Position numbers and translations under genes: made by a program. DNA of 58,039 nucleotides from a virus, in the IMG/VR virus record IMGVR_UViG_3300032326_000244, positions 1 through 58,039 of that record; one strand, given 5' to 3'. The stretch's first letter is position 1, and each line of letters opens with the position of its first letter. This document shows, piece by piece, positions 370-16,687 of the stretch. The notes beneath the pieces are model-generated. The model was not told where the DNA came from. It ran no database searches and saw only the letters and a program-made list of their open reading frames with translations.

Positions 370-590
370 TAGATTTAGAAATTTTCGAATTAAGAGATTT
401 ACAAAAAGAAGCGGCTCGAGCATTGTCGTCAATGGACGCAACTAACGATAACATTTATAAGTTTAATCAGCAAGCATACCATGACAGTCAACGATGGTAT
501 AAGGCTGTAATAACTTGGTATGTAGAACAGTACGGGGATCTTCCTAGTAGAGTAGGACCTGGATCACTAATTAAATTGGTAATGGAATAA
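366..590 (+). CDS. Small hypothetical protein (74 aa)
   Basis: I do not recognise this gene. It encodes a short, helical, mostly charged protein rich in Tyr, Gln and Trp, with no cysteine and no membrane segment or signal peptide. Its start overlaps the end of the methyltransferase-like gene, and its stop TAA overlaps the ATG of the first radical SAM gene (TAATG), so translation is coupled on both sides. Because it sits directly before a SPASM-type radical SAM gene it could be a partner or substrate of that enzyme, but it has no clear leader/core pattern of a modified peptide, so this is only a thought. Confidence 0.7.
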   Translation: MIDLEIFELRDLQKEAARALSSMDATNDNIYKFNQQAYHDSQRWYKAVITWYVEQYGDLPSRVGPGSLIKLVME

Positions 591-1759
591 TGCTTTACAA
601 ATACAATGATATAAAAACAGTACACTTGGAAGTCACAGATAAATGTAATGCTGCTTGTCCTATGTGTGCTAGAAATATCAACGGCGGAGAAGATAATCCG
701 CAATTACCCGAAGTTGAATTATCATTAGACGATGTTAAAACAATGTTTCCTATTGAATTTATTAAGCAATTAGATAGGTTGTATATGTGTGGTAACTATG
801 GAGATCCTATCGCTGCTAAAGATACATTGGAAATATTTCAATATTTCAGAGAACATAACAGTAAGATGATGTTGAGCTTACACACTAACGGAAGTGCTAA
901 AAGTACCGAGTGGTGGACAAATCTAGCAAAAGTTCTCGGTACTAAGGGTTATGTTGTTTTTAGTGTTGATGGTCTTGAAGACACAAATCATTTGTATAGG
1001 CAAAATACTGTGTTTAGCAAAATTATGACTAACGCACAGGCGTTTATTGATGCTGGTGGCAGGGCACGGTGGGATTATATTGTATTCGCACATAACGAAC
1101 ATCAAGTCGAGGAAGCAGAAGAATTATCTAAAAAAATGAAATTTGAAAAATTTCAGTTTAAGAAGTCGGCTCGTTTCTATAGTAATGCTACTGGTGTGAC
1201 AAAAGAAATGCATCAGGCAGCAAATAGGAAAGGATTAACTACACTGTTACAACCTCCTACTAATCCAAAGTATCGAAATAGCGCATTACAAGAACTTAGT
1301 AAAATTGCCAAAGCCACTAATGAAGTTAAATTCTTACCTAGTAAATCTTCTGACTTGACAGGACATTTAGGAAGACAAGTGTTTCACATAGCTGAAGATA
1401 AGAAAACAGCAATGGAAAAATATTGGGATACTTCATCAATTAAATGTAAAGTAGCGGAAGAAAAAAGCATTTACATCAGCGCTGAAGGTGTAGTACAGCC
1501 TTGTTGCTGGACAGCCGGGCAAATGTATGTCTGGTATTGGGAACCTGAAAGTAGTCAAATTTGGGATCTAATTAACACTGTTGGTAAAGATAACATAAAT
1601 GCTAAAAACAAACCTTTACAACAAATTGTAGACGGGTTGTTTTTTCAAGAGCTTATTCCTGATAGTTGGAATAAATCAAGTTGTGCCACAGGAAAACTAG
1701 CTGTATGTGCCAAGACATGTGGTGGTAAACATGATGCCTTTGCTGAACAATTTAAATGA
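590..1759 (+). CDS. Radical SAM protein with C-terminal SPASM-like domain
   Basis: The N-terminus carries the radical SAM cluster motif C-x3-C-x2-C at residues 19, 23 and 26 (CNAACPMC). This binds a [4Fe-4S] cluster that cleaves S-adenosylmethionine to a 5'-deoxyadenosyl radical. The usual GGEP motif after strand 2 is replaced by CGNYGDP. The C-terminal 110 residues hold seven cysteines (CKVAEE, QPCCW, SSCATG, AVCAKTC), as expected for a SPASM-type auxiliary iron-sulfur region. It is a close paralogue of the protein at 10524-11591, sharing the D-P variant and the FxHNEHQVE segment. It is the first complete radical SAM gene of the island. The substrate is unknown. The family is certain, the role is not. 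Confidence 0.9.
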   Translation: MLYKYNDIKTVHLEVTDKCNAACPMCARNINGGEDNPQLPEVELSLDDVKTMFPIEFIKQLDRLYMCGNYGDPIAAKDTLEIFQYFREHNSKMMLSLHTNGSAKSTEWWTNLAKVLGTKGYVVFSVDGLEDTNHLYRQNTVFSKIMTNAQAFIDAGGRARWDYIVFAHNEHQVEEAEELSKKMKFEKFQFKKSARFYSNATGVTKEMHQAANRKGLTTLLQPPTNPKYRNSALQELSKIAKATNEVKFLPSKSSDLTGHLGRQVFHIAEDKKTAMEKYWDTSSIKCKVAEEKSIYISAEGVVQPCCWTAGQMYVWYWEPESSQIWDLINTVGKDNINAKNKPLQQIVDGLFFQELIPDSWNKSSCATGKLAVCAKTCGGKHDAFAEQFK

Positions 1760-1760
1760 T

Positions 1761-2711
1761 TTAACTTAGTAATTTTTTAGTTATATTAGTTTCTAACGCA
1801 CAGCTACACCATACTTGTTTACAACGTACTGGCATCTTTGCTAGTCCTTTAAAATCTTCGATAGTTCCTAAGTACTGTCCTTGGCCGCAACTAGCGCCGG
1901 TTATTCTTCCAAAAAAGGAAATGTATAGGCAATCATTTCCGATATTACACGCCCAATTGTAGAACTTGTTTAATCTATTGTTAAGAAGATATTGGTCGTC
2001 TAATTTCTGTTCTTCACCGGTATCGTATTTTATATAAGAATGGCCGAAACCTCGTCCTTGTTCAATACTAAACGGAAATGGTTTGTTTAAAGGTTCTTCT
2101 TTTTCAAACCACAATAATTGTTCAGCACTATAGTCGTAACTGGTGTCCTGTTCGTGTTGATCCTTCTTAAATACTCTTGTGAATCCCACATGAGCCATAC
2201 TGTCCATAGCTTTGAATTTATTATACGCTTCAACACATTTGTCCCATAATGGCGGCCACATTAATACAAATACTCCAGTATTTGTAATTTTGCCTACAGC
2301 ATCCATTTTTTCAAATATGTCTGTATTGTCCCATTCGGGGTGATAACTTAGTGTAACTTTATATAGTTTTGGAGCGTGTTCTGTCCACCATGCCATGCTT
2401 CTTGTACCGTTAGTATTAACATGGCAGTACCATTTATACTCGTTAAATTTATCGCACAAGAATTCAAAATGTGGTGATATAGTAGGTTCGCCACCGTTTA
2501 AAAAGATGTGTACCGGTCTATCTTTGACTTCGTCTTTTAACTTGATTAAAAAGTTTTCTAATATTTTTTGATCTTCTAGCTTGTCGATAATAGTATTAGT
2601 ACCCCGATGTAGACTATCAGGACAATAGGAACAATGATATGTACAAATACTATTCAATGTCCAGTTAATTACCAACACATTATTCTTGTCATAAATTTCT
2701 ATAGGTTTCAT
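1761..2711 (-). CDS. Radical SAM protein with cysteine-rich C-terminus
   Basis: Residues 23, 27 and 30 form the radical SAM motif (CTYHCSYC), and NGGEPTISP about 65 residues later is the SAM-binding GGEP motif. The last 75 residues contain several cysteines (NWACNIGNDC, GASCGQG, VRCKQVWCSC), which could bind one auxiliary cluster. The protein is shorter (316 aa) than its twitch-type neighbours and most resembles the last gene of the island at 15515-16687. It is encoded opposite to its neighbours and ends two bases from the convergent stop of the first radical SAM gene. Its start faces the start of the 2744 gene across a 32-base region with a palindrome. The substrate is unknown. Confidence 0.88.
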   Translation of the reverse strand: MKPIEIYDKNNVLVINWTLNSICTYHCSYCPDSLHRGTNTIIDKLEDQKILENFLIKLKDEVKDRPVHIFLNGGEPTISPHFEFLCDKFNEYKWYCHVNTNGTRSMAWWTEHAPKLYKVTLSYHPEWDNTDIFEKMDAVGKITNTGVFVLMWPPLWDKCVEAYNKFKAMDSMAHVGFTRVFKKDQHEQDTSYDYSAEQLLWFEKEEPLNKPFPFSIEQGRGFGHSYIKYDTGEEQKLDDQYLLNNRLNKFYNWACNIGNDCLYISFFGRITGASCGQGQYLGTIEDFKGLAKMPVRCKQVWCSCALETNITKKLLS

Positions 2712-2743
2712 AATACGTCTATTTAGCTAACCATAAATACCGT
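2712..2743. promoter_or_regulatory. Divergent promoter region with TTAGCTAA palindrome
   Basis: This 32-base gap separates two divergent radical SAM genes. In its middle is the perfect 8-base palindrome TTAGCTAA (2723-2730). On the + side CATAAATA (2732-2739) lies four bases before the ATG at 2744. On the - side CTAAATA follows the palindrome. NATAAATA resembles T4-type late promoter -10 boxes (TATAAATA). No Shine-Dalgarno sequence fits before the + start. The layout repeats at 8259-8296. Confidence 0.4.
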
Positions 2744-4021
2744 ATGACATCAAATACTATATTTCCAATCAAATCCGACACTGCTTGTTTTTTAAAATGG
2801 GCATGGAGCAGCCTCTTTGTGTACCAAGGAACTTCCAGCTCATGCCATCGCACAGTACATTCTTCATTTAGACCAGAGCTAATAGGTACTTTTCATAATA
2901 CTCCTGAAAAGATTAAAGAACGAGAGATGATGCTCGAAGGTAAGTGGCCTGGCCGAGGCTGCGAATACTGCCGAGATATCGAAGCAGCAGGCGGCACAAG
3001 CGATCGTATGCGAGAATTAGAAGGCCTGGCTGATTCGTTATACAAAGGATTTATTCCTAAGGAATTGATAGATAATCCTTTTGCCACTGTCGTTACTCCT
3101 ACTATGTTGGAAGTTTATTTTAGCAACGTGTGTAATATGACGTGTCTATATTGCGGACCAGATTTAAGTACACAATGGGTCGCTGAAAATAATATACATG
3201 CGGGCGAAACAGGCAAGCAACAATTTAAAATACATCAAGAACGACAAAGTTTATATCCTGAGCGATTAAAATATTTCTGGGAATGGTTAGCGCAGAATTA
3301 TCAAAATCTTCGTATGTTTAATGTGTTAGGCGGCGAACCATTTTATCAAGATGAAACAGAACAGTGTATTGAATTTTGGAACAACAACCCTAATCCTAAC
3401 ATGCATTTTAGCATCTTCTCTAATTTAAAAGTTAAACCTGAAAAATTTAAAAAAATATTAGATAAATTTGATCATCTTATTAAAAACAAAAAAGTAAGTT
3501 CTATCGGTATAACTGCCAGTCTTGACTGTTGGGGCGAACCGCAAGAATATGTTCGATGGGGAGTGGATCTCAATGAGTGGGAGACTAATTTCAAAACACT
3601 TGTGTATGATTACCCTAGTATAAAAATTTGTGTTAACAGTACGATAAATTGTCTTTCTATTAAGACTATGCCTGAACTGCTGACAAAAATTAATGAATGT
3701 AATGCGTATAGACGTAGTATAACTGGCAGTGATATAATTCATAGTTTCAATATGTTAACTGACCCGAAGTTTATGAACGCTAGGATTTTTCCAGCAGGAT
3801 TTTTTGATGAAGATTTTAAAAAGATTTTAGCTGTTATGCCTGAATCTAATCCTCGCGAAATTAGTCTTAAAGATCATATGGAAGGTATTTGGAAAACGTA
3901 TAATTCTTCAGGACAAGATTCTGGTCAAATCGCATTGTTAAAGGAAATACTAAATGAAACTGACCGACGTCATAAAACCAATTGGCGAACAATTTTTCCA
4001 TGGCTTGTAGACATTGATTAA
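2744..4021 (+). CDS. Radical SAM protein with N-terminal twitch-type domain
   Basis: The first 80 residues carry cysteines at 15, 34, 73 and 76 (ACFLKWAW, SSSCHR, GCEYC), which fit an N-terminal twitch domain holding an auxiliary [4Fe-4S] cluster. The radical SAM motif follows at residues 130, 134 and 137 (CNMTCLYCGP), then LGGEPF for SAM binding. The C-terminus ends in a WRTIFPWLVDI segment. It is a clear paralogue of the protein at 7002-8258; both begin with FPIxS, ACxLKWAWSSL and an HNTP segment. It is followed after seven bases by an SDR-like gene and then another radical SAM gene. A CATAAATA box lies four bases before the start. The substrate is unknown. Confidence 0.9.
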   Translation: MTSNTIFPIKSDTACFLKWAWSSLFVYQGTSSSCHRTVHSSFRPELIGTFHNTPEKIKEREMMLEGKWPGRGCEYCRDIEAAGGTSDRMRELEGLADSLYKGFIPKELIDNPFATVVTPTMLEVYFSNVCNMTCLYCGPDLSTQWVAENNIHAGETGKQQFKIHQERQSLYPERLKYFWEWLAQNYQNLRMFNVLGGEPFYQDETEQCIEFWNNNPNPNMHFSIFSNLKVKPEKFKKILDKFDHLIKNKKVSSIGITASLDCWGEPQEYVRWGVDLNEWETNFKTLVYDYPSIKICVNSTINCLSIKTMPELLTKINECNAYRRSITGSDIIHSFNMLTDPKFMNARIFPAGFFDEDFKKILAVMPESNPREISLKDHMEGIWKTYNSSGQDSGQIALLKEILNETDRRHKTNWRTIFPWLVDID

Positions 4022-4028
4022 ATATTAG

Positions 4029-4577
4029 ATGAAAATACTTATTACTGGAAATCCAAAAGTTGGTTTAGCATCTGAATTATTCAAACTATATCCTGACGCA
4101 ACATTTATATCCAGAGAAAACGGATACGATTTAACCACACGAGAAGGTTATCACAAGTTAGGAGAAATCGTTAAAGATTATGATATTTTTATTAATTCAA
4201 GTGCGTTATGGAAGTTTAATCAAACACTAGTACTCGAGTCAGTGTATAAAAAATGTCTAGAAATCAAACACAATATACGAATTATTTGTGTAGGTAGCAC
4301 TACGGATAGAGTTAATAAAGCAACATCTTGGATTTACAACGCCGAAAAAAAAGCTCTACGTGATTACGCTAACAGTCTAAGTTTAATAGGTGTGTGGGAT
4401 AACGGCCCTACAGTTTCACTTATTAGCTTTGGTAGTTTATCTAATGTACAAGCAAAACATCCTGAGCGTATTTGTTTAGAATTATCAAGCGCCGCATCTT
4501 ATATTAAATGGATAATAGACCAACCTGCCGGCATTTCTATTAATGAAATAAGTATAGATCCTTTACAACGCAAATGA
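4029..4577 (+). CDS. Short Rossmann-fold (SDR-like) protein
   Basis: The protein starts with MKILITGNPKVGLASEL, a degenerate glycine-rich nucleotide-binding loop after the first strand. It has INSSALW where SDR proteins have the NNA-type motif, IICVGSTTD as the fourth strand with the catalytic serine region, and YNAEKKAL, which fits the YxxxK active-site motif. At 182 residues it is shorter than classical SDR enzymes (about 250) and lacks much of the substrate-binding end. It probably reduces or oxidises a small molecule with NAD(P). It lies between two radical SAM genes and overlaps the next by four bases (ATGA), so it likely acts in the same pathway. Loss of activity cannot be excluded. Confidence 0.65.
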   Translation: MKILITGNPKVGLASELFKLYPDATFISRENGYDLTTREGYHKLGEIVKDYDIFINSSALWKFNQTLVLESVYKKCLEIKHNIRIICVGSTTDRVNKATSWIYNAEKKALRDYANSLSLIGVWDNGPTVSLISFGSLSNVQAKHPERICLELSSAASYIKWIIDQPAGISINEISIDPLQRK

Positions 4578-5887
4578 CTAAAACTTTTTGTCCTATTCCA
4601 TGGAACTTTCAAGCAGTTCGTAATAACGGCGATATTCGTATCTGTTGTCAAGCCAATGTAACGGAAAATCAAGGTGTGGTTAGACACGACGACGGCACTC
4701 CGTTTAATGCCGGCAAAGATAATATGGAGCTTGCTCGTAATGCTATTCTAATGAAAGAAGTTCGTAAGAATATGCTAACAGGTGAGTGGAGTCAAGAATG
4801 TGGCCGTTGCCAAAGTGAAGAAGCTAGTGGACTTAATAGTCGTAGACAATACGAATTAGAAAACTGGAAGTTTAGCGTAGAAGATGCTCGTAATATTACA
4901 GAAGAAGATGGTAGTATTAAAGATAGAAATTTAGAATATTACGACTTACGATTCGGTAACTTATGTAACTTAGCTTGCCGCATGTGCGGACCAACTGACA
5001 GTCATACTTGGTATGAACAGTGGACAGATTATCACGGCAGTACAGAATACAAAGACACCCATGGTATTGTAAAACTAATCAAAAACTCCAAAGGTAGATT
5101 AAGTACCGAAGATTACGATTGGCATAATAGTGAAACATTCTGGCAGCAAATAGAAGAAAATATCCCCAACATTAAACATGTTTACATGGCGGGCGGCGAG
5201 CCCATGATGATTGAACGCCACTATGAGTTTTTACAAAAATGTATTGACATGGGTCATAGTAAGAAGATGATCATCGAGTATAATACTAACATGAGCAACT
5301 TGCCTAAACGTGTATTAGATATGTGGACGCAGTTTAAACAAGTTCGTGTTGGTGCTAGTATGGATGGTATGGGTGAAACCGTAGAGTATCAGCGTTGGCC
5401 TTTAAAATGGAGCCAAGCATATAAGAACTTACAAAAGCTAGACGAGTATGCAGAACGTAACCCAAACATATTGGCTTGGCTTGCCTGCACAGTAACAGCG
5501 TATAACATTTGGCACGTACCTCGTTTTATGAAGTGGAAGTTGCAAAGCAGTGGCTTTACTAAGATTAACAGCACAAAGAAGCGTCCTATTATAACACATC
5601 ACGTAGCACACGGCCCAAAGCGTGTTAACGTGCGTATACTACCTGCTGATATGAAACAGGAGGTTGTTGAATACTATGCTCGTTGGATTGAAGAGTTTAA
5701 AGCAGAGTACCCGGAAGATATTGCTAAAAACGCTGAAAACATTTTAAACAGTATTACCAAGTATATGTTAGGTGCTGACTATAGTGATAAACTTCCTGAG
5801 TTTATTAAATTTACAAAGTATTTAGATAGTGCTAGGGATCAAAGTATTATTGATATAGCACCAGAATTTAAACGTTTATTTGATTAA
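4574..5887 (+). CDS. Radical SAM protein with N-terminal twitch-type domain
   Basis: Cysteines 6, 24, 25, 76 and 79 (TFCPIPW, RICCQAN, ECGRC) form the N-terminal twitch-type set. The radical SAM motif is at 131, 135 and 138 (CNLACRMCGP), and AGGEPM is the SAM-binding motif. The pattern Phe-Cys-x-x-Pro-Trp at the N-terminus is shared with the genes at 8297 and 11588, which marks a subgroup. The C-terminal part is close to that of the 8297 protein, with LACTVTAYNIWHVPRFMKWKL paralleled there. Start overlaps the SDR-like gene. It ends in a 12-base convergent overlap with the nitroreductase-like gene. Substrate unknown. Confidence 0.9.
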   Translation: MTKTFCPIPWNFQAVRNNGDIRICCQANVTENQGVVRHDDGTPFNAGKDNMELARNAILMKEVRKNMLTGEWSQECGRCQSEEASGLNSRRQYELENWKFSVEDARNITEEDGSIKDRNLEYYDLRFGNLCNLACRMCGPTDSHTWYEQWTDYHGSTEYKDTHGIVKLIKNSKGRLSTEDYDWHNSETFWQQIEENIPNIKHVYMAGGEPMMIERHYEFLQKCIDMGHSKKMIIEYNTNMSNLPKRVLDMWTQFKQVRVGASMDGMGETVEYQRWPLKWSQAYKNLQKLDEYAERNPNILAWLACTVTAYNIWHVPRFMKWKLQSSGFTKINSTKKRPIITHHVAHGPKRVNVRILPADMKQEVVEYYARWIEEFKAEYPEDIAKNAENILNSITKYMLGADYSDKLPEFIKFTKYLDSARDQSIIDIAPEFKRLFD

Positions 5888-7000
5888 GATTTCAGCAGGT
5901 CTATCTTTAGATCGTCTGTTTCTTAAGAAATGATTACCGTCTACATCTACGCATAAGTTACTGAGCTTAGTAACATCCGGTACACCCACTCCTAGTATAG
6001 CAACAGGATAATTATCTTCAGTAATACCATGTTTTGTAGAAAGCCACTTAGAAATGTTGCTTGGATTGTAGCATCCACAAAATCCTGTCTTGTAACCCAT
6101 TAATTGTGCAGCCAGTGCTACAGCACCTGCGCTAATTCCGGTGTTTAAACTTTGATGTCTTGTTAGTTCTATATCGGTATCGTATTCAAGATCGAAAAGT
6201 CTATTATAAGTTTCATCTTTGTTGGCAGTCCACATAAAAACAACTGGTGCTAATAATTGCGTGTTATAGTTTTTCTGATTTCTAGGAGTGTGCCTTGCGC
6301 CAATTTTTAATGCTGGCATTCTTGTTAATCCGTGATTAATAACATCAATTGTAATATTTGTAAGTTGTCTAATGTCAGTTTGTTCTGCTGTAATATCGCA
6401 GATTATAATTTGCTGTTCAGTTTGTTGTAGTGGGGTGATTCTAGTATTAGTTAAAATATGTTCAGTAATTAATCTTTGAATAAATCTATGAGTCTCGAGT
6501 TCGGCTACTTTTCTGACTAGTAAGTTTCCGTTTTTATCGAAGTATTTTGATACTATGTTGCGTGTATGTTTATTAGAATCTAGTTTTAGATCTTTAATAT
6601 AGGCTTCTAGTACAAATCCAATATCTCTATAACATTTATGTGCTTCGTATACAAAATTTTCAAAAGAAGGACTTTTCGTATCTACTTTATTCTTAATCCA
6701 AGCAGCTCCTTCTCTTTTAATAAATTCTTTATTTTCTTTTAATAACCTTACAGCATTAGGGGCTAAATTTGGCATATTATCTGGAATATATCCTTCACTA
6801 TGACAAATGTCGAACAATTCTTCCTTTGCTACAGTGTCAGTAAAGGCGATACATTTAAAGAAGTTAACGTTCTGTTTAGTAGGAGTTCCATTAGCTACTT
6901 GTAACAGTAAGTTTAAATTCTCTTCAGATACGCTGTCGCTAATCCAGTTTCTTTGACAAGCGTTAATCGATGCTAATGCGGATAAAATCTCAGTGTTCAT
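5876..7000 (-). CDS. Nitroreductase-like flavoprotein with a large insertion
   Basis: Residues about 18-50 (NWISDSVSEENLNLLLQVA, then TKQN) resemble the N-terminal helix and flavin-contact region of nitroreductase-family enzymes. Residues about 283-345 (ISAGAVALAAQLMGYKTGFCG and AILGVGVPDV) match the family's core helix and C-terminal strand. Between them lie about 150 extra residues without a recognised motif. The usual family length is about 200 residues, so 374 is long. Such enzymes use FMN and NAD(P)H for two-electron reductions or dehydrogenations. A GAGGG Shine-Dalgarno sequence precedes the ATG by eight bases. The gene follows the radical SAM gene at 7002 in the same direction and probably serves the same pathway. 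Confidence 0.6.
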   Translation of the reverse strand: MNTEILSALASINACQRNWISDSVSEENLNLLLQVANGTPTKQNVNFFKCIAFTDTVAKEELFDICHSEGYIPDNMPNLAPNAVRLLKENKEFIKREGAAWIKNKVDTKSPSFENFVYEAHKCYRDIGFVLEAYIKDLKLDSNKHTRNIVSKYFDKNGNLLVRKVAELETHRFIQRLITEHILTNTRITPLQQTEQQIIICDITAEQTDIRQLTNITIDVINHGLTRMPALKIGARHTPRNQKNYNTQLLAPVVFMWTANKDETYNRLFDLEYDTDIELTRHQSLNTGISAGAVALAAQLMGYKTGFCGCYNPSNISKWLSTKHGITEDNYPVAILGVGVPDVTKLSNLCVDVDGNHFLRNRRSKDRPAEILIK

Positions 7001-7001
7001 T

Positions 7002-8258
7002 TTAATTTCCCTCTTTAATATTTATCAGCCATGGAAAAACCTCCTGCCAATTTGTGTTTCTACGACTATCCATTTTATCTAAGAATATTTTTAGTTCTTT
7101 AATTTTTTCATAATCTGTAGGAGTTTCAACGATTTCTTTAAAAATGGCATTTACATAATCGATGTAACCTGTGTTATTAAACATCTGGTTGTTTAATTCT
7201 TGTATTTCTTTTATTATATCGATATAAACTTCACCAGGAATATTATGCGGATCTAAAATCTTAGGAGAAATACACTTATTATAGTTCACACTAATCTTTT
7301 TACCTTTACATGTATTATTCCAGTGAATAACTTTTTTAATTAGTTCTGGAGTACTGTGTATTGATAGCGCCGATACAGTCCAGTTCATAGTAGGAATAAT
7401 TTCAGGGCACTCGTATATAAGATATTCCATATTTTCTGTAAATGTTTCAAGATCAAGGCCTGTTCTAATATACTCAGATTCTGTACCCCAGCAATCAATA
7501 CTGGCAGTCAGTTCAACGGTATTACAAGTTTTTACTAATTGTTTAATTTTCTCCATCTGTTTTTTAAAAAGAGATGGCTTAATTTGCATGTTAGAAAAAA
7601 TCTCAACATCGAGGTCTGGGTTCGGATGTGCAATCATCCAATCTATACAATCAAAAGTTTCTTGTTGAATTAACGGCTCCCCGCCTAGTATATGAAATTC
7701 TCGCAAGTCACAATAATGTTTTTCCATCCACACATAAAATTCAGCTAGGCGTGTTTTATAAGTTACATCATTAATAGAAATAGAATTTAAAAAAGAACTG
7801 TCACTCGTGCCATATTGTTCTTCCTCTAATACCCATGAACTGCTCAAGAATGGTCCGCAATATAAACACTTCAAATTACATTTATTATTGAAGTAAATTT
7901 CTAACATTGTGGGATTTACTGATGTTTGTCTTGGATTACTATATAACTCTTTAGGTACATATTTTTCGTTATATGGCCTAGATAGCCAATTCTTTCTGTC
8001 GCTGAAATTACTGTAAGTTTCTTGATCTCTACAACTTTCACAACCCCGTCCAGGCCACACATTTCTTAACATTTTTTCTCTATCTGTTATTACTTGAGGA
8101 GTATTGTGAAAGTTTTTAATGTCGTCTACTTTAACACTTTGTACCCTGTGACAAGAGCTAGATGTGCTAGTCCATAAGTATAAACTACTCCATGCCCATT
8201 TTAATAAACACGCTCCTTCAGATTGGATAGGAAACCATTTTTTAGTATTTTCAGTCAT
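7002..8258 (-). CDS. Radical SAM protein with N-terminal twitch-type domain
   Basis: Cysteines 17, 36, 73 and 76 (ACLLKWAW, SSSCHR, GCESC) form the N-terminal twitch-type set, and 127, 131 and 134 (CNLKCLYCGP) the radical SAM motif, followed by LGGEPL. It is the paralogue of the 2744 protein over its whole length, including the FPWL ending. That gene is paired with an SDR-like gene, this one with a nitroreductase-like gene, so the two may make related products with different redox partners. It is divergent from the 8297 gene across a 38-base palindromic region and has GATAAATA four bases before its ATG. Substrate unknown. Confidence 0.9.
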   Translation of the reverse strand: MTENTKKWFPIQSEGACLLKWAWSSLYLWTSTSSSCHRVQSVKVDDIKNFHNTPQVITDREKMLRNVWPGRGCESCRDQETYSNFSDRKNWLSRPYNEKYVPKELYSNPRQTSVNPTMLEIYFNNKCNLKCLYCGPFLSSSWVLEEEQYGTSDSSFLNSISINDVTYKTRLAEFYVWMEKHYCDLREFHILGGEPLIQQETFDCIDWMIAHPNPDLDVEIFSNMQIKPSLFKKQMEKIKQLVKTCNTVELTASIDCWGTESEYIRTGLDLETFTENMEYLIYECPEIIPTMNWTVSALSIHSTPELIKKVIHWNNTCKGKKISVNYNKCISPKILDPHNIPGEVYIDIIKEIQELNNQMFNNTGYIDYVNAIFKEIVETPTDYEKIKELKIFLDKMDSRRNTNWQEVFPWLINIKEGN

Positions 8259-8296
8259 GAAATATTTATCGCTAAAATTTAGCGGTTAAATATAGT
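8259..8296. promoter_or_regulatory. Divergent promoter region with CGCTAAA/TTTAGCG palindrome
   Basis: The gap between two divergent radical SAM genes contains a perfect inverted repeat CGCTAAA-A-TTTAGCG (8270-8284). Going outward on each side comes an AT-rich box: GATAAATA on the - strand (8263-8270) and GTTAAATA on the + strand, each ending close to its ATG. The whole region is nearly symmetric, so a dimeric regulator bound at the centre could control both genes. The boxes resemble late-type -10 elements. This is read directly from sequence; function is inferred. Confidence 0.5.
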
Positions 8297-9700
8297 ATGA
8301 ATAAAATATCTGAAACATTTTGTATTTTGCCCTGGGTACACCTGAGTACACGACCTGACGGCAGCATGAGAGTTTGCTGTACAGCCAATGCCAGCAGCGT
8401 TGGAGCTACTAACGATAAAGAGCATGGCGGCATGGTTGGTGTTCTCAAAACAGACGACGGCAAACCAAATAATTTAAACGTAAGCGATTTTAAAAGTGCG
8501 TGGAATAGTACGTATATGCGAAGTGTACGTAAGCAAATGATTAACGGCGAGCAACCTCCTAGCTGTTTAAAATGCTACAAAGAAGAAGCGGCTGGGCATA
8601 ACAGCAAACGTATGTGGGAAACCGCATATTGGAGTCAACGAGTAAATGTTGATAAGTTGTTAGAAGATACAGCAGAAGATGGCAGTGTTCCTCCACAACT
8701 TGCCTACATTGATTTACGATTTGGAACAAAGTGTCAATTGGCATGTGTGATGTGTAGTCCGCATGATAGCAGCGGCTGGATTAAAGATTACAAAGCTATT
8801 TTCCCTGAAGTGGAAAACGCCAGTTTAAAACAAACTATGTTATGGACTGACAAGGGTTCTACTAACGGCAGTAGTTATAATTGGCATAAACAAAATCCTG
8901 TGTTCTGGCAACAGTTCTATGAACAGATTCCTAATATGCAACAGATTTATTTTGCTGGCGGGGAAAGTTTAATTATTGAAGAACATTATGAAATTCTTGA
9001 AGAATGTATCAGACAAGGTCATGCTAAGAATCTTGAACTACGTTACAATAGTAACGGTGTTGAGTGGCGTGAGGATCTGTTTGATCTCTGGAAACATTTT
9101 AAGTTGGTCAGATTCCACTACAGTGTCGACAGCATCGGAGAAATGAATTCTTATATACGTTATCCTAGTACATGGGAACGTACTAAAGAAGTATTTCATA
9201 TTCTAGATAAACAAACCGGCAATAACGTTGAAGTTACAGTAGCTTGTGCTGTACAGGCACTGAACATTTATTATCTCCCAGACTTTCTGAAATGGAAACT
9301 CGAAGAAGGATTTACTAAAATTAACATGTGGCCATTCGGAGCCGGAGGCATTAACTATCATTTTGTATATCATCCGCCGCACCTAAACGTCAAAGTGTTG
9401 CCTGCAGAATTCAAAGCAGCTTGTCGTAAAAAGTATGAAGAATTTTATTCATGGTGGGAAGCAAACTGGGAACTGGGAATTCCTAGTTGGCACAAAGGCA
9501 AAGTAACATATGATGCTTGGCGCAAGGCAGAGTATGGTATTAGTCGTTTAGAAGGTATGTTAAAGTTTATGGAAAGTGAAGATTGGAGTAATCGACTTCC
9601 TGAAACTAAAGAATTTTTAGACTTATGCGATAAACAACGCAATCTTAACTTCGGTGAAATTTTCCCAGAGATGAAGGATATTTTCAATGGAACAAAGTAA
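8297..9700 (+). CDS. Radical SAM protein with N-terminal twitch-type domain (GGES variant)
   Basis: Cysteines 9, 27, 28, 90 and 93 (TFCILPW, RVCCTAN, SCLKC) form the twitch-type set; 146, 150 and 153 (CQLACVMCSP) form the radical SAM motif. The SAM-binding motif reads AGGESL instead of GGEP. At 467 residues it is the longest radical SAM protein of the island. The C-terminal half is closest to the 4574 protein. Its stop overlaps the start of the oxygenase-like gene by 14 bases, so the two are made together. The start lies close to the shared palindrome with the divergent 7002 gene, with no clear Shine-Dalgarno sequence. Substrate unknown. Confidence 0.9.
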   Translation: MNKISETFCILPWVHLSTRPDGSMRVCCTANASSVGATNDKEHGGMVGVLKTDDGKPNNLNVSDFKSAWNSTYMRSVRKQMINGEQPPSCLKCYKEEAAGHNSKRMWETAYWSQRVNVDKLLEDTAEDGSVPPQLAYIDLRFGTKCQLACVMCSPHDSSGWIKDYKAIFPEVENASLKQTMLWTDKGSTNGSSYNWHKQNPVFWQQFYEQIPNMQQIYFAGGESLIIEEHYEILEECIRQGHAKNLELRYNSNGVEWREDLFDLWKHFKLVRFHYSVDSIGEMNSYIRYPSTWERTKEVFHILDKQTGNNVEVTVACAVQALNIYYLPDFLKWKLEEGFTKINMWPFGAGGINYHFVYHPPHLNVKVLPAEFKAACRKKYEEFYSWWEANWELGIPSWHKGKVTYDAWRKAEYGISRLEGMLKFMESEDWSNRLPETKEFLDLCDKQRNLNFGEIFPEMKDIFNGTK

Positions 9701-10514
9701 AAATTTAGAATGGGTCCCTGGCGATCCTATAACAAAAGAAATGTTAGTAGTCAAAACAGAGGATCATGCTGCTTGGACAAAAACATGGGGCGATAGCTAT
9801 TGTGTCGAAAATGTATTTGACGACGACGAGTTAACCTGGTTAGAAGATTTAATGTATAGGAATCACAAAAGTCGTCGTGTTAAGAAAAACGGAACACTAC
9901 ACTTTAATGTAGACAATAGACTTATACAAAATAAGTTTTTTGACAAATTAAAAACTATTATTCCTGAACTAGAAAATACCGAACTATGGGAAGGTAATTT
10001 TTTAATAACTGCCACTCCTTATAACATACATATCGACACGGGTAACCACCAAGTGTTAAGTACAGCAACTTATGTTCCTGGCAAACAATTTATCATTCCT
10101 CTTTGGTTTTGCCACGGCAATAAAACTACTGATAATCCAGAGCACGGTACAGCCATCTTTAAAAACCGATTTATTATGTATGGTACAAATTTTGCCAAAG
10201 GCGACGCAAAGTATGATACTAATGTTTTTTACACAGTGCGCGACTATAAGGACTTAGTATGTTATAATAAAGACGGATCTGTATGGGATATTGACTGGTC
10301 TAAACGCAGCATAAGTGATGAAATATATAATAGATATTTTGACCACTTTAAAAGAGAATGGCTAGACGGCTTCGAATTGGAAGCAGTGTATCAATGGAAA
10401 CGTGGAAGTATCATAGTGTTTGATAGATCTCAAGCACACACAGGTATCAATTTTATGAAAAATAAAGTAACAATGAAGTGTGGGCTATCTATGATGACTA
10501 CAGTTAAACGATAA
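9687..10514 (+). CDS. Fe(II)/2-oxoglutarate oxygenase-like protein
   Basis: The protein has HID at residues 115-117 and a distal His at about 251 in SQAHTGINF, after the strand GSIIVFDRS. An HxD followed by a distal His in a cupin-like strand order is the iron-binding facial triad of 2-oxoglutarate-dependent oxygenases. These enzymes hydroxylate or desaturate substrates using O2 and 2-oxoglutarate. The family basic residue for 2-oxoglutarate is not certain here. The gene overlaps the end of the 8297 radical SAM gene and is followed after nine bases by a SPASM-type radical SAM gene. It may hydroxylate the same product. Confidence in the fold is moderate. Confidence 0.6.
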   Translation: MEQSKNLEWVPGDPITKEMLVVKTEDHAAWTKTWGDSYCVENVFDDDELTWLEDLMYRNHKSRRVKKNGTLHFNVDNRLIQNKFFDKLKTIIPELENTELWEGNFLITATPYNIHIDTGNHQVLSTATYVPGKQFIIPLWFCHGNKTTDNPEHGTAIFKNRFIMYGTNFAKGDAKYDTNVFYTVRDYKDLVCYNKDGSVWDIDWSKRSISDEIYNRYFDHFKREWLDGFELEAVYQWKRGSIIVFDRSQAHTGINFMKNKVTMKCGLSMMTTVKR

Positions 10515-10523
10515 TAGTAATCG

Positions 10524-11591
10524 ATGATAGAATTAGATCAAATAAAGATAGTCCATGTCGAAGCCAGTAGTAGGTGTAATAGCAGATGCCCTATGTGTAG
10601 TAGATTTACGGCAGACGGATTTGTTCAACCTGAATTAAACGAATTAGATTTAACTGGCGAAGTTTTTTATAAATTATTCACTAAAGAATTTACAAGTCAA
10701 TTAGAGCATGTGTATTTTAGTGGAGTCTACGGAGACCCTTGCTTAAACAAGCTATTACCAGAATTCGTTAATTATCTAATGGATAACGGATGTAAGAGTG
10801 TTAGCATAGACACTAATGGTGGATATCGTAGTGAAGATTGGTGGGCGAGTCTTGCTAGACCGCGGGTGATGATTAATTTTGCGTTGGACGGTACTGATAA
10901 CGAAACACTGGACAAGTATCGTATAGGAGTTGTGTACGATAAAGCGTATGCCAATATGAAAGCATTTGTTGCCAACGGTGGCAATGCACAGTGGAATTTT
11001 ATTGTGTTCAAACATAATGAGCATCAAGTTGAAACAGCCAAACAATTAGCCGAGGATATTGGCGCAAAGTTTAGACTTAAAGTAACGCAAAAATTTCGTG
11101 GACGAAAAAATTATAAAGTTATGATAGATGGTGTACAACAGTATACGTTGGAGCCGCCTGATCAAGAATCTTTTAGACATCCAAACGTAGGAACTGTTGA
11201 ACATATTCCTATCAGTATTTTTAAATATAAAGATTATTCAAAATTATCTCATCTTAACGGAAATAAGGTCAGTTGTAAAATACAACAACGTCAGGAAATT
11301 TATTTAACTAGTACTGGATTGTTAATGCCTTGCTGTTATCTTGCTACCTATACACATGATAGTCCAGGCGCCGCACAGTTTACTAGTATATACGATTTAG
11401 AAAAATTTAATTTAAAATCTCTATCAGTAGCTGAAATCTTAGAAAATTTTAAACCAATAAGCGACAACTGGGACAAAACTATAAATGATGGAAATTTAAT
11501 TACTTGCTTACACACTTGTGGAAATAAAGAAAACACTACACTTTATCAAAACATCAATTTGAAAAAAGAAAATATTTTAAAACAGCAATGA
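10524..11591 (+). CDS. Radical SAM protein with C-terminal SPASM-like domain
   Basis: The radical SAM motif is at residues 18, 22 and 25 (CNSRCPMC). As in the protein at 590-1759, the GGEP motif is replaced, here by SGVYGDP. The C-terminal 80 residues have cysteines in SCKIQQ, MPCCYL, TCLHTCGN, fitting a SPASM-type auxiliary cluster region. The two proteins share the segments DTNGG/HTNGS, the DYIVF/NFIVFxHNEHQVE stretch and overall length, so they are paralogues within one cluster. The stop overlaps the next gene start by four bases (ATGA). Substrate unknown. Confidence 0.9.
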   Translation: MIELDQIKIVHVEASSRCNSRCPMCSRFTADGFVQPELNELDLTGEVFYKLFTKEFTSQLEHVYFSGVYGDPCLNKLLPEFVNYLMDNGCKSVSIDTNGGYRSEDWWASLARPRVMINFALDGTDNETLDKYRIGVVYDKAYANMKAFVANGGNAQWNFIVFKHNEHQVETAKQLAEDIGAKFRLKVTQKFRGRKNYKVMIDGVQQYTLEPPDQESFRHPNVGTVEHIPISIFKYKDYSKLSHLNGNKVSCKIQQRQEIYLTSTGLLMPCCYLATYTHDSPGAAQFTSIYDLEKFNLKSLSVAEILENFKPISDNWDKTINDGNLITCLHTCGNKENTTLYQNINLKKENILKQQ

Positions 11592-12946
11592 CAGCAAAAT
11601 CTAAAACATTTTGTATATTACCTTTTATACACATACAAGTTAAACCCAGCGGGCAAATAAAACCTTGTTGTCGATTTGATTTCGTACACGACGACTATAT
11701 TGATAAAACATGGACTGCTGAAAAAGGTAACGCATATCACACTTTTAATAAGTATAACATTTCCAACGGTTCTACTTTAACTGAAGCTATGAACAGCGAT
11801 TTATGGAATGATGTCAGACATAAGATGTTAGCAGGAGAACCTGTTAGTGGATGTAGAAAGTGCTACACACAGGAAACATTTAACGGCAGTTCGATGCGTG
11901 TTTATGAAAACAATGACAGAAACGATGGTATACAAGATGAGTTATCTAGTAGTGTAGAACCTTTAAAAATAAAATATCTCGAGATGACTTTTGGAAATTA
12001 TTGTAATTTAAAGTGTAGAACATGTGCGGGTGATTTATCTAGCACATGGCACGAAGAAGAAGTATTATTGGCAAAAGTTTACCCTGGCAGATACAGCTCT
12101 CCTAAAGTTTTAAATATTCCTTTTAATTGGAAACCTGAAGATTTTATCAATATAGAAGAAATTAAATTCACTGGCGGTGAGCCTATGATTCATCCTGACT
12201 TTTTAAAGTTAATGGATATGTTAATTGAAATCGATGTTGCCAAGAATATTTCGTTAGATGTGTTTACAAATTGTAGTTGGAAGCCTGGCGAGAAGTTCTT
12301 TAAAAGACTAAATCAATTTAAACAAGTAAAAATTAGTTTAAGTATAGACGGCGTTGGAAAAACTAACGATTATATAAGAACACCCAGTGAGTGGAATGTA
12401 GTTGATTCTGTTGTGGATAGTTGGCTCGGCCAAGAAGCAGCAGCTCCTTCTAAAATTCAAATAACGTGGAATCCTACTATCAATATCTATAATATTTTAG
12501 AAATAGATACAATGATAGCTTGGTGGGATGAAAAACAAAACAGACATTTTCTCAATCGTCCTTGGCCCAATTTAATAGAACAAAATTATAGAGAAGACAC
12601 TACTTCTAGTTTTAGATTAATTTTTAACATTTTACAAGATCCGAAATACTTGTCAGTATCCAATTTACCAGAATCGGCAAAACAGTTAGCCAGCAGTAAA
12701 CTAAAATTAATATATGACAAATACGATTCTTCTAATTCGTTAGGTAACCCCCGTAAAGAAATGTTTAATAAAAAATTAGCCGCAATTGACGGAGCTCTTA
12801 AGTTACCAGCAAATAAAGAAATGCTACAGTTATTTGCTAGCTATACCGAAGACTTAGATAGACTACGTACCCAGTCGTTAAAAAATTCTTTACCTTTATT
12901 GTACAAAGAATTAGAAGGTTATGTAGAATACACAGGAAAACTATAA
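11588..12946 (+). CDS. Radical SAM protein with N-terminal twitch-type domain
   Basis: Cysteines 9, 27, 28, 89 and 92 (TFCILPF, KPCCRFD, GCRKC) form the twitch-type set. The radical SAM motif is at 139, 143 and 146 (CNLKCRTCAG), with TGGEPM following. The protein belongs with the 4574 and 8297 proteins in the subgroup with F-C-x-x-P near the start, but its second half differs. It begins a run of three twitch-type genes joined by overlapping stop and start codons, so all three are probably made in fixed proportion. Substrate unknown. Confidence 0.9.
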   Translation: MTAKSKTFCILPFIHIQVKPSGQIKPCCRFDFVHDDYIDKTWTAEKGNAYHTFNKYNISNGSTLTEAMNSDLWNDVRHKMLAGEPVSGCRKCYTQETFNGSSMRVYENNDRNDGIQDELSSSVEPLKIKYLEMTFGNYCNLKCRTCAGDLSSTWHEEEVLLAKVYPGRYSSPKVLNIPFNWKPEDFINIEEIKFTGGEPMIHPDFLKLMDMLIEIDVAKNISLDVFTNCSWKPGEKFFKRLNQFKQVKISLSIDGVGKTNDYIRTPSEWNVVDSVVDSWLGQEAAAPSKIQITWNPTINIYNILEIDTMIAWWDEKQNRHFLNRPWPNLIEQNYREDTTSSFRLIFNILQDPKYLSVSNLPESAKQLASSKLKLIYDKYDSSNSLGNPRKEMFNKKLAAIDGALKLPANKEMLQLFASYTEDLDRLRTQSLKNSLPLLYKELEGYVEYTGKL

Positions 12947-14190
12947 TGAGCAAGACTTTTTGTGTTATGCCATTTTGCCATGTAAACATTAAACAAGAAG
13001 GTAAAGTAAGTGCCTGCTGGAGATACCCTGATAAAATTGGAGACTATACTAAACAAAGTATCAGTGAAGTTTGGAATGGTACTGAGATAAAAGAATTGCG
13101 AAGACAATTACTCAACGATGAGCGTCCTGTAGGATGCCGTAGTTGTTGGGATATGGAAGACAGCGGTGTTCGTAGTACAAGATCGCAAACAGCAGTTGAT
13201 TATAAAGACATAATGGATATTGAAAAGGCAAAAGCAGTAATCGCCGAAGACTTTTCAATGCCTGCTGAAAATTTAAAAAGCATCGAACTTAGATTTGATA
13301 ATATTTGTAATTTAATGTGTAGACATTGTAGTCCTGATTACAGTAGTAAATGGGAAGCGGCAGTTAAGCGCGATGAAAAGCTACAAAGTAAAATGATTCA
13401 GTTCGGCACTTTTAGGAAAAGTGATGAGCATATAAACCTCAATCAAAAAATTATTGATGAGATTGGCAGTACTGTTTCTTCTAATCTAACAGAAATTATG
13501 CTAGCAGGTGGCGAGCCTTTATATCATGAACGTCATTATGATTTTATTAAGTCTATGCTACCCAACGCTAAAAATATAAAACTTAGCTATAACAGTAATT
13601 TAACCAAATTAAATTACAAGGGTAATTCTATTTTAGAGTTATGGAAGCATTTTAAAAAAGTTAACCTACGTGTAAGCATCGATGGTGATCCTAGTTGTTA
13701 TCAATATGTTAGAGCACACGATGGCTTGACAACAATTGAAAAAAACATTAAACTAGTACAAGAAGTACCTAATACTAGAGTCAGCGCAACCTGTACTACC
13801 AGTTTATTGAATATAACAAGATTGATACCAACTATAGAATATTTCTTATCATTAGGCGCATATTTTCATGCCAGCATAGTTCAATATCCTAGGGCATTAA
13901 ATCCTAAGTTGTTGCCTGTAGAACTAAAAGAAAAAATAACAACTGATTGGAATAATTGGATTGCTGATATCGATACAAATATTATAAATTGTGTAAAGTT
14001 ATTGCCTACCACGGATGTAGAATCACATAAGAAAAACATCCTAAAGTTTGGACATATGGTAGTTAATTATATGAATTCAGAAAATTGGCATGACCACTGG
14101 CACGAATTTGTAGATTACTCTGCGGTATTGGATGATTATTTCAAAACAGACTTATACAGCGTATACCCTGAATTTAAATTTATAAAGTGA
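12946..14190 (+). CDS. Radical SAM protein with N-terminal twitch-type domain
   Basis: Cysteines 6, 24, 64 and 67 (TFCVMPF, SACWRY, GCRSC) form the twitch-type set; here the double cysteine of its neighbours is C-W, so one ligand is missing or replaced (Cys11 is an extra candidate). The radical SAM motif is at 121, 125 and 128 (CNLMCRHCSP), with AGGEPL. The TAATG junction with the previous gene implies coupled translation. Among the twitch-type proteins it is the shortest at 414 residues. Substrate unknown. Confidence 0.9.
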   Translation: MSKTFCVMPFCHVNIKQEGKVSACWRYPDKIGDYTKQSISEVWNGTEIKELRRQLLNDERPVGCRSCWDMEDSGVRSTRSQTAVDYKDIMDIEKAKAVIAEDFSMPAENLKSIELRFDNICNLMCRHCSPDYSSKWEAAVKRDEKLQSKMIQFGTFRKSDEHINLNQKIIDEIGSTVSSNLTEIMLAGGEPLYHERHYDFIKSMLPNAKNIKLSYNSNLTKLNYKGNSILELWKHFKKVNLRVSIDGDPSCYQYVRAHDGLTTIEKNIKLVQEVPNTRVSATCTTSLLNITRLIPTIEYFLSLGAYFHASIVQYPRALNPKLLPVELKEKITTDWNNWIADIDTNIINCVKLLPTTDVESHKKNILKFGHMVVNYMNSENWHDHWHEFVDYSAVLDDYFKTDLYSVYPEFKFIK

Positions 14191-14195
14191 AACAT

Positions 14196-15515
14196 ATGGA
14201 AGAATGGAAAAATACTTATTGTTCTAAATCATGGACTGATGTCAATGTAGACTTTTCAAGTGAGTTCGTTAGAAACTGTTGTAAATCGCAGCCTATTAAA
14301 TTTGTTCCAAACTTAGATAAAACTTTCTTTGAATTTTCACCCGATTTAGTCAAACGTAAGACAGATAGTTTAAACGGAATTCAAAATGAGCAATGTAATT
14401 TTTGTTGGAAAGAAGAAGGCAACAGAGCTACTTATCGAGACGTACATAATAGGTGGTCAACTGAATTTGTAGAATCAACTCGAGATGATCTTTTATCTAC
14501 TGACAAATCATTTGCGAATTATATAGAAGTAAAGTTTTCTAACACTTGCGATATGGCCTGTTTATATTGTAGTCCAAAATTTAGTAGCAAAATAGCAATA
14601 GAAGAAAACGTTCGAATTAAAAGTGTGCCACTGGCATCTGAATTCGAAGCTTTTAAAGAATTCTCAGATCCTCTAATTAAAAACGCAGTAAAATTAGTAA
14701 AGGAAGATATAAAAAAAGATGTATGGGATACAACACAATTACGTTTTGTATTTCTAGGCGGCGAGCCTACATTGATAGATCAATTTTATGACTTTATTAA
14801 TCACATTACTGAAAGAGTCAAGCATTATACTCAGGAAAAAAACTGGGAATATAAAATGAGGAATATACGTCTTGAAATAGTTACTAATGGTAATACTACT
14901 CCAGCTCTTATGGAGAAGTTTTTTAAATTAGTCGGCACCACTAGTTTTCAATGGACTGTTGGAATAAGTAATGAGTCATTCGGACACGATGCTGAATTAA
15001 TACGAAACGGCTTGAATTGGGAAAGATTTCAACATAATTTTAATCAATATATTTCCAGGTCTAAAAAAATTGATAGTATTAATCTAGCACCTGCCCTTAA
15101 TATTTTTAGTTTAAAGACATTTCATCTTTACGTAGCATGGGTACATGAACAATTTAACAAACAGTTGGAATTAACTGGATACTGCCCTGCATTTACATGG
15201 CATGGCAATTTTATTGCGGACCCTGTAATGGATATAAATGTGTTACCTATCGAATATAGAAAATATGTCGACCTTGCTATCGATTTGATTGAAAAAGAAA
15301 CTAATCCTAAATTTAAAAATAAGCAAAACACAATTAAATTCTTAAATCAAATGAAAGATAGAATTGGGTCAATTGATCCTGAATCGCCCGATGTCAAATG
15401 GTACAAAGAACGAGCAAGAGATTGGCTCTTAGTGAAAGAGCAAAAGAAAGGCGTTAGTAACTTAACACCTTTGTTATTAAATATTGGTTACGATAATTAT
15501 AAAGAGTACATTTAA
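14196..15515 (+). CDS. Radical SAM protein with N-terminal twitch-type domain
   Basis: Counting from the alternative GTG start at 14187, cysteines 12, 31, 32, 70 and 73 (TYCSKSW, RNCCKSQ, QCNFC) form the twitch-type set, and 121, 125 and 128 (CDMACLYCSP) the radical SAM motif; LGGEPT follows. The ATG at 14196 is chosen because it is the first ATG; the GTG at 14187 would overlap the previous stop as GTGA and would add three residues. The C-terminus is basic and unlike that of its neighbours. The stop overlaps the next start (TAATG). Substrate unknown. Confidence 0.88.
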   Translation: MEEWKNTYCSKSWTDVNVDFSSEFVRNCCKSQPIKFVPNLDKTFFEFSPDLVKRKTDSLNGIQNEQCNFCWKEEGNRATYRDVHNRWSTEFVESTRDDLLSTDKSFANYIEVKFSNTCDMACLYCSPKFSSKIAIEENVRIKSVPLASEFEAFKEFSDPLIKNAVKLVKEDIKKDVWDTTQLRFVFLGGEPTLIDQFYDFINHITERVKHYTQEKNWEYKMRNIRLEIVTNGNTTPALMEKFFKLVGTTSFQWTVGISNESFGHDAELIRNGLNWERFQHNFNQYISRSKKIDSINLAPALNIFSLKTFHLYVAWVHEQFNKQLELTGYCPAFTWHGNFIADPVMDINVLPIEYRKYVDLAIDLIEKETNPKFKNKQNTIKFLNQMKDRIGSIDPESPDVKWYKERARDWLLVKEQKKGVSNLTPLLLNIGYDNYKEYI

Positions 15516-16687
15516 TGAGTAATGATTTATCTTGGTCGGCTTACGACTTTACAAAAATTCCGTACAACGATATTCAACGTGTCGGTCAGCGCACAATGTT
15601 GTACAGAGATCTCTTTACAGTTAGTTGGTTGTTAGGTAGATTCTGTAACTATCGATGCAGTTACTGCTGGCCTTATGCCCGTAGTGACAAGAAAGACCAC
15701 AGACCTACAGAGTTATGCTTACTTACAGTAGACGAGATTAAGCGTCAAGCACGTGAGCGAGGATTTAACAGCTTTCACTTCAGTCTAAGCGGCGGCGAAC
15801 CCACGTTCCATCCAGGGTATATTGATATTCTAAATCATCTAAACAATGATGCGGAAAATACAAATTATACTAGTGTACATATGACTACTAACATGAGTCG
15901 TAGTTTACGATGGTTTGAAGATGAGTACTGCCCTGCTGTAAGCAAATTTCATAGAGCCAGCATCACGGCTAGCTTACATACTGAACATGTAGACACTCCT
16001 GAAAAGATGCAAGATTTTGCTGACAAACTAATATTGTGTCAACAGCATGATGTACAGGTAACTATTAACATGGTCATGGTTCCTGAATGGTTTGAACGTG
16101 ATTTCGAAAATGCCTTGTTCTTTCACAATCAAGGAATCAACGTAACGCTAAAACCTCAAAGCGATCCTACAGCAAGTCGTGTAGTTGATGGATATACTCC
16201 GGATATGCTAAAACGTTTACACAACGGTATGCCACAACGAGCATTTACAGAAAATAAAGCAGATGAAGCTAAACTAGTCAAGCGTCCTATCCCTACATTT
16301 CGTAAAGTACCAGATCCATTGTACAAAGAAGAAAACGCAAAAATACCACAGCATTTTCAAGTAGAATTTGTCGACTCTAACAAGAAAATTTGGTACATGG
16401 ATCAAGCTGAAAGATTTAATGCCTTTAACTTTAACAAGTTTAAAGGATGGGAGTGTAGTAGTGGCTATCGCAGTATTATTATACGTGAACCAGATGGCAG
16501 TATAAAACGTAGTTATAGCTGTAGCGATGTTCCATTAGGTAATGTAGAAACTGGTTTTAACTTGTTTAACGGACCGACTCCATGTATTAGCGAAAGTTGT
16601 GTTAGCAGTGCTGACAGTAAAATACCCAAAAGAGCGCCCGGAACAAAGTTACCTTTGTGGCCGGGCGATAAGACGTTTGAAGATTAA
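15515..16687 (+). CDS. Radical SAM protein with cysteine-containing C-terminus
   Basis: The radical SAM motif is at residues 44, 48 and 51 (CNYRCSYCWP), and SLSGGEPTFHPG is the SAM-binding motif. There is no N-terminal cysteine domain. The C-terminal 70 residues contain WECSSG, YSCSDV, TPCISESC, so one auxiliary cluster is possible. It resembles the 1761-2711 protein in design. It is the last gene of the + strand island and overlaps the stop of the convergent thyX gene by four bases. A strong GC-rich hairpin (16635-16667) lies within its last codons. Substrate unknown. Confidence 0.9.
   Translation: MSNDLSWSAYDFTKIPYNDIQRVGQRTMLYRDLFTVSWLLGRFCNYRCSYCWPYARSDKKDHRPTELCLLTVDEIKRQARERGFNSFHFSLSGGEPTFHPGYIDILNHLNNDAENTNYTSVHMTTNMSRSLRWFEDEYCPAVSKFHRASITASLHTEHVDTPEKMQDFADKLILCQQHDVQVTINMVMVPEWFERDFENALFFHNQGINVTLKPQSDPTASRVVDGYTPDMLKRLHNGMPQRAFTENKADEAKLVKRPIPTFRKVPDPLYKEENAKIPQHFQVEFVDSNKKIWYMDQAERFNAFNFNKFKGWECSSGYRSIIIREPDGSIKRSYSCSDVPLGNVETGFNLFNGPTPCISESCVSSADSKIPKRAPGTKLPLWPGDKTFED
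16635..16667. terminator. Strong hairpin at a convergent gene junction
   Basis: CGCCCGG (16635-16641) pairs with CCGGGCG (16661-16667), and inside it ACAAAG pairs with CTTTGT around a TTAC loop. The hairpin lies in the last codons of the + strand radical SAM gene, about 20 bases before its stop and just past the end of the - strand thyX operon. On the - strand it is followed by CTCTTTTGGG, a short T-rich stretch; on the + strand there is no T run. It could stop transcription from the right or block antisense reading. Termination is inferred. Confidence 0.4.

Follow-up and report, generated by a model that had tools for sequence, protein, structure and literature searches.

Which substrate could call for eleven radical SAM (rSAM) enzymes encoded almost end to end in a viral genome? 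The question is raised by the window, i.e. the whole stretch of DNA analysed here, an IMG/VR virus record of 58,039 bases. The rest of the contig comes from a phage whose DNA polymerase (38776-41442) is of T4 type, and the array lies against the replication-side genes.

Composition of the array

A sequence-only reading had noted eleven genes with a CxxxCxxC motif at 590-16687. This number was confirmed: a motif scan finds CX3CX2C in 11/11 ORFs of the region and each of them matches PF04055 (Radical_SAM), with E from 1.5e-4 to 8.7e-18 and nine over the curated Pfam cut-off. The profile search thus places all eleven in the superfamily. Beyond these ORFs, PF04055 has no match elsewhere in the 58-kb contig. 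The genes are as follows.

40-369, plus strand: 3´ part of a methyltransferase-like gene (family f36/c82), cut by the left end of the contig
366-590, plus strand: 74-residue protein (hyp1/c5), companion of R1; conserved, without known family
590-1759, plus strand: R1, rSAM with SPASM-like C-terminal cysteines; core gene, 15/15 records
1761-2711, minus strand: R2, short rSAM with conserved C-terminal cysteines; accessory
2744-4021, plus strand: R3, N_Twi_rSAM; accessory, sister of R5
4029-4577, plus strand: SDR-like oxidoreductase of 182 residues; weak match (E 7.5e-4), 12/15 records
4574-5887, plus strand: R4, N_Twi_rSAM; core gene, 62-92% identity across relatives
5876-7000, minus strand: protein with C-terminal nitroreductase domain (NTR); PF00881 over cut-off
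7002-8258, minus strand: R5, N_Twi_rSAM; accessory
8297-9700, plus strand: R6, N_Twi_rSAM with Pfam SPASM; core gene, 15/15 records
9687-10514, plus strand: probable 2OG-Fe(II) oxygenase; HxD...H seen by eye, no family match
10524-11591, plus strand: R7, rSAM with five conserved C-terminal cysteines (R1-like)
11588-12946, plus strand: R8, N_Twi_rSAM; accessory
12946-14190, plus strand: R9, N_Twi_rSAM with Pfam SPASM; accessory
14187-15515, plus strand: R10, N_Twi-like rSAM (153.9 bits against a cut-off of 170); accessory
15515-16687, plus strand: R11, rSAM with four invariant C-terminal cysteines; core gene, 73-97% identity, 15/15 records

Seven of the eleven had been credited with an N-terminal twitch-type cysteine set, and the family NF033640 (N_Twi_rSAM), in which the SPASM/twitch cysteines are N-terminal, bears this out. 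R3, R4, R5, R6, R8, R9 and R10 match it over almost full length; six of them score 239-424 bits, over the whole-protein cut-off of 170 bits, and R10 stays below it. R1, R7 and R11 reach 35-47 bits, under the cut-off and in the rSAM domain only, and R2 has no match at E<=0.01. The two SPASM-like ends proposed earlier belong to R1 (C286, C305, C306, C373 and C377, kept in 8/8 orthologues) and R7, with five conserved cysteines each. The statement that two further proteins have neither kind of set was wrong, since C-terminal cysteines are conserved both in R2 (C255, C275, C297, C302 and C304 in 6/6 orthologues) and in R11 (C314, C336, C357 and C362 in 8/8). Because R1, R2, R7 and R11 also possess such residues, all eleven proteins probably bind a second Fe-S cluster.

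Among the three oxidoreductases that had been named, the nitroreductase holds, the SDR is a weak match and the oxygenase is recognized by eye only. The gene at the left edge is, as supposed, the 3´ end of a longer one, which in relatives encodes 311-352 residues. Its product is methyltransferase-like by resemblance; a profile of the family (A8) matched PDB methyltransferases very weakly (E about 0.9).

The spacing between neighbouring genes of the array is -14 to +38 bp, so that they overlap or adjoin, and it had been concluded that they are made together. The array is not wholly co-directional, as R2, NTR and R5 are encoded on the minus strand, and the overlaps therefore back joint expression only within blocks, best in 8297-16687, and not across the array. 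Scans of promoters and terminators stayed near chance level, and the window has no copy of the T4 late motif TATAAATA, where shuffling predicts 6.7 sites. In one related phage (G005), 12 of 13 TATAAATA sites lie just upstream of genes, one of them near the start of the island, a suggestive but thin indication of late expression. The GC content of the island is 34-36%, against 38-42% in the remainder of the contig. A gene for FAD-dependent thymidylate synthase, ThyX (16684-17358), adjoins the array; in relatives it is shifted or replaced. The window contains no tRNA that could help to assign the host.

Structural searches were of limited help. PDB sequence searches with R6, R7 and R11 gave nothing usable, nor did profiles of R6, of the 74-residue protein, of the methyltransferase-like family and of c1, a family of the island in relatives; matches of the 74-residue profile were rejected as low-complexity designed repeats. 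A model of R4 (pLDDT 73) found no PDB match below E 1e-3, with viperin, PqqE and sactipeptide maturases as weak matches only. Among viral models its matches are rSAM proteins of phages, that of KVP40 included, which indicates fold and not substrate.

Conservation and surroundings in related phages

The sequence-only reading treated the array as property of a single phage. This proved incorrect, as relatives occur in hundreds of viral loci. Relatives of R4 are present in 21 other viral contigs, each with 8-19 rSAM genes, and N_Twi_rSAM genes over the cut-off occur in 21/21 of these records versus 0/14 control genomes. A pattern scan found no cellular relatives of R4. In 15/15 records compared (window included), R1, R4, R6 and R11 are all present at 47-97% identity; the universality of R4 follows by construction, for R4 defined the record set, and that of R1, R6 and R11 does not. 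The 74-residue protein was found in 14/15 and the SDR in 12/15 records, the other families vary, and about 25 accessory families beyond the core are gained and lost between relatives.

Independent scans yielded 473 relatives of R11, 488 of R6 and 442 viral loci with the 74-residue protein. Among the best 80 of each, at least three rSAM genes are present in every locus of at least 20 kb (47/47, 44/44 and 38/38, respectively), and still in 42/42, 34/34 and 26/26 after removal of near-identical loci. The relatives are thus never single in the sampled loci, contrary to what had been named as a possible refutation. As these loci are those of the closest relatives, more distant ones may show a lower proportion. 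When two related phages were divided into thirty 20-kb tiles, those of the island contained 4-12 rSAM genes and all others 0-1. In a tree of N_Twi proteins the seven from the window belong to separate, mostly deep families, which argues against one recent amplification; 6/7 bacterial sequences cluster together.

The 74-residue protein accompanies R1 almost invariably across its 442 viral loci, and R1 is present in 38/38 of those at least 20 kb long that were anchored on it. It has no Pfam or PHROG match. Unusual architectures also occur: a polypeptide of 811 residues with two Radical_SAM domains in one relative (G012, record 52192-54003, L082) and, in others, rSAMs of 670-770 residues that carry a long extension at the N-terminus (family c27).

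In the nearest relative, G001, a co-directional run starts at 203990 with tail-fibre and collar proteins. It continues through glycosyltransferase-like proteins, a methyltransferase-like protein (whose gene corresponds to the truncated one at the left end of the window), the 74-residue protein and R1, and then through a mostly co-directional rSAM array ending with R11 at 237398. Tail-fibre genes, glycosyltransferases and rSAM genes of relatives thus share one variable island (203990-237398 in G001). No glycosyltransferase is encoded within the window; in relatives such genes lie off what is here the left end. Around the 74-residue protein, glycosyltransferase-like family c1 and the methyltransferase-like family are located within 10 kb in 38/38 loci, a tail-fibre-like protein (c48) in 27/38. 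Although c1 has no Pfam match, the eight best PDB matches of its predicted model (pLDDT 87) are all WrtF fucosyltransferase, followed by other GT-A enzymes (E 2e-4 for WrtF, but with low TM-scores of about 0.33). We call it GT-like, a putative GT-A-type glycosyltransferase by its modelled fold.

In many relatives the glycosyltransferases are succeeded by enzymes of sugar-nucleotide synthesis and sugar decoration, so that the array closes a long island. Pfam-backed partners differ between relatives. Some encode a carbamoyltransferase, an NTP-transferase fused to a kinase, a shikimate-dehydrogenase-like protein, a GatZ-like aldolase and a SnoaL protein, others a UDP-sugar dehydrogenase, DegT aminotransferase, cytidylyltransferase and IscU, and further ones an Asp/Asn hydroxylase, NifU, SufE and AMP-ligase. 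In one subgroup, genes for IscU, NifU-C and SufE (c47, c122 and c123) stand directly beside the array (L062:2646-3062; L019-L021, L023). The IscU of G021 is closest to proteins of marine Gammaproteobacteria (77-80% identity), a hint of the host that concerns the G021 subgroup only, not the phage of the window. The glycan part of the G021 island also includes a RuBisCO-like large-subunit protein (PF00016, 122 bits; L059:18530-19666) with homologues in G018 and G019 (c106). An amidinotransferase/deiminase-like protein (c110, L060:5392-6396; weak ADI match, below cut-off) is present in the islands of these three phages and recalls aminocyclitol guanidinylation.

Membrane proteins are almost absent from the islands: a hydropathy scan of 15 records detected no multi-pass protein of exporter size, and no flippase, polymerase or exporter (Wzx/Wzy or Wzm/Wzt) was found in these islands. 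The island may act on glycans, but it is not a complete O-antigen system.

Candidate substrates

Pointers to a carbohydrate come also from outside the clade of the window. NF033640 is rare in bacteria; it was detected in only 2/398 Pseudomonadota genomes, and two more positive genomes came from samples of two classes, with about 1,300 genomes searched altogether. In this tiny sample of four genomes, three of the loci have a glycan context. One of them (G113) carries a tandem of four copies of the family, with an ABC-2 permease, RmlD, RmlC, a TylF methyltransferase and WbsX as neighbours. In its O-antigen-type locus, a single chain of 854 residues (L179:8579-11143, minus strand) joins ABC_tran, Wzt_C, SPASM and Radical_SAM. 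Wzt_C is the domain that reads the O-antigen in ABC-transporter-dependent export. In G780 and G148, N_Twi_rSAM genes are near those for NAD-epimerase and glycosyltransferase (the latter recognized by eye in G148); around the fourth locus, in G792, no glycan genes were seen. Further, Vibrio phage K566, which is in culture, has a run in which four such rSAMs are interleaved with two GT8 genes (over cut-off) and a GT4-like gene; a gene annotated as PagP is close to this run. In Vibrio phage QD01 a gene annotated as RfaF-like (weak GT9 by Pfam) is found near the rSAMs.

We consider it moderately probable that the island tailors a carbohydrate, either of the host surface or of the virion. Substrate, chemistry and purpose are what we infer here, from which genes are present, how far they are conserved, their position among tail-fibre and glycan genes, and the bacterial Wzt-rSAM fusion. 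For R1, R2, R7 and R11, which are not N_Twi proteins, the link to glycans is one of co-location. The idea of a multi-step tailoring set, with a peptide pathway not favoured, was well founded in the sequence-only reading; of the products it listed (nucleobase, sugar, cofactor or surface molecule), the evidence favours a sugar or surface glycan and makes the others less likely.

In our model, the rSAM run would form the tailoring end of a host-recognition or glycan island of the phage. Glycosyltransferases and sugar-nucleotide enzymes would supply the scaffold, and the rSAM enzymes would act on its sugar units, either as nucleotide sugars or in the assembled glycan. The 5´-deoxyadenosyl radical would abstract an unactivated hydrogen, and the sugar would be epimerised, dehydrogenated or deoxygenated, the second Fe-S cluster serving to relay the electron. 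The fixed core (R1, R4, R6, R11 and the 74-residue protein) might make a common modified unit, which interchangeable accessory rSAMs, oxygenases and reductases would diversify, as serotypes diversify; a fixed core with swappable accessories fits a diversifying surface structure. The glycan would decorate either the host surface, excluding competitors or protecting released virions, or the tail fibres. Since the array adjoins tail fibres and no exporter is encoded, the virion or a cytoplasmic intermediate is favoured; the Wzt fusion and the PagP neighbour favour the host surface as carrier, and a product placed there would need host machinery. More speculative, and in our view doubtful, is the extended form of this model: a modular assembly line of radical enzymes whose product is an unprecedented carbohydrate, placed on the phage's tail fibres or on the surface polysaccharide of the host, glycan "serotypes" arising through swaps of rSAM cassettes.

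The main rival is direct modification of a protein, i.e. of the tail fibres encoded upstream or of a peptide such as the 74-residue protein, in the manner of SPASM maturases in RiPP pathways. Peptides are the best-known and frequent substrates of SPASM enzymes, yet none of the array's ORFs resembles a leader-core precursor, and intergenic gaps do not exceed 38 bp. Conservation extends over most of the 74-residue protein, which lacks a variable core; neither this protein nor the others scanned, which cover part of the island, have a Pfam match to RRE/PqqD. Tail-fibre-like genes do lie upstream of the array on the same strand in relatives, the Asp/Asn hydroxylase, nitroreductase and 2OG oxygenase partners suit peptide chemistry, and the missing exporter suits a cytoplasmic substrate. 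The bacterial relatives, however, reside in O-antigen-type loci, once fused to Wzt, and we regard modification of a protein as rather unlikely.

A soluble small molecule or cofactor, natural-product-like, made and active during infection, is still harder to defend. It would explain the aminotransferase, AMP-ligase-like, amidinotransferase-like, SnoaL and carbamoyltransferase families of relatives, and phage NifU, IscU and SufE would provide Fe-S clusters. Most such partners are nevertheless lineage-specific, whereas c1, the GT-like family, and tail-fibre genes are almost always among the neighbours; surface-polysaccharide loci commonly contain many of these families too, and there is no transporter or resistance gene.

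Hypermodification of phage DNA bases is very improbable. Enzymes of the rSAM superfamily participate in some pathways of this kind, and ThyX adjoins the array, but ThyX is a common nucleotide gene and in relatives the array adjoins tail-fibre and GT genes; a search for the HMUDK (5-hmdU DNA kinase) domain, run without positive control, gave 0 matches in 15 records. Equally hard to credit is a passive pile-up of selfish or decaying paralogues without common pathway, which the free gain and loss of accessory families might suggest, but which is at odds with core genes that 15/15 records retain, with the invariance of their catalytic and auxiliary cysteines and with a window in which no broken copies were seen.

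Known systems and implications

A carbohydrate as substrate has precedents among rSAM enzymes of aminoglycosides and cyclitols. PMC10991966 describes rSAM enzymes of sugars or cyclitols, several with a second cluster (NeoN, BtrN), and cites HygY as a twitch epimerase; BlsE, acting on a sugar nucleoside, is covered together with BtrN in PMC3715490. The enzymes of the window resemble BtrN, HygY and NeoN in this respect, but the similarity of sequence is at superfamily level, no orthology was found, and in N_Twi proteins the cysteines of the auxiliary cluster precede the rSAM domain.

The array had been proposed as an undescribed system. This holds in part, as clusters of rSAM genes had already been noted without a function being assigned (PMC5332604, PMC7029224). 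The T4-like marine phage TARA_ERS488813_N000010 has a similar count, twelve rSAM genes, read as Fe-S-related metabolism, with Fe-S assembly genes in the same genomes (PMC5332604); that study counts genes and proposes no arrangement, core set or substrate. Host-recognition clusters of pelagimyophages and cyanomyophages, likewise T4-like aquatic phages, are large variable islands that combine tail fibres, glycosyltransferases and rSAM cassettes, the cassettes differing between clusters (PMC7029224). There the rSAMs are mentioned in passing, whereas here we deal with an array of 8-19 genes with a four-gene core and a 74-residue companion, which in the window lies against replication-side genes. 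In Tasman Sea phages rSAM genes are reported to be prevalent along with glycosyltransferases and RmlD (PMC7150976). NF033640, to which 7 of the 11 rSAMs belong or on which they border, is an NCBIfam family without assigned function, and we found no description of the function or core set of such arrays in the open-access literature.

Taken together, rSAM arrays recur in hundreds of phage contigs without assigned function, and the tie of N_Twi_rSAM proteins to glycans (Wzt fusion, interleaving with GT8, GT-A and tail-fibre neighbours) provides the first concrete testable substrate hypothesis known to us. Because relatives exist in Vibrio phages that are in culture, among them QD01, whose host V. 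natriegens Vmax is a laboratory strain, the hypothesis is open to experiment. The arrays point to a large reservoir of enzymes, and the glycan link suggests that phages may diversify surface or virion sugars through C-H chemistry.
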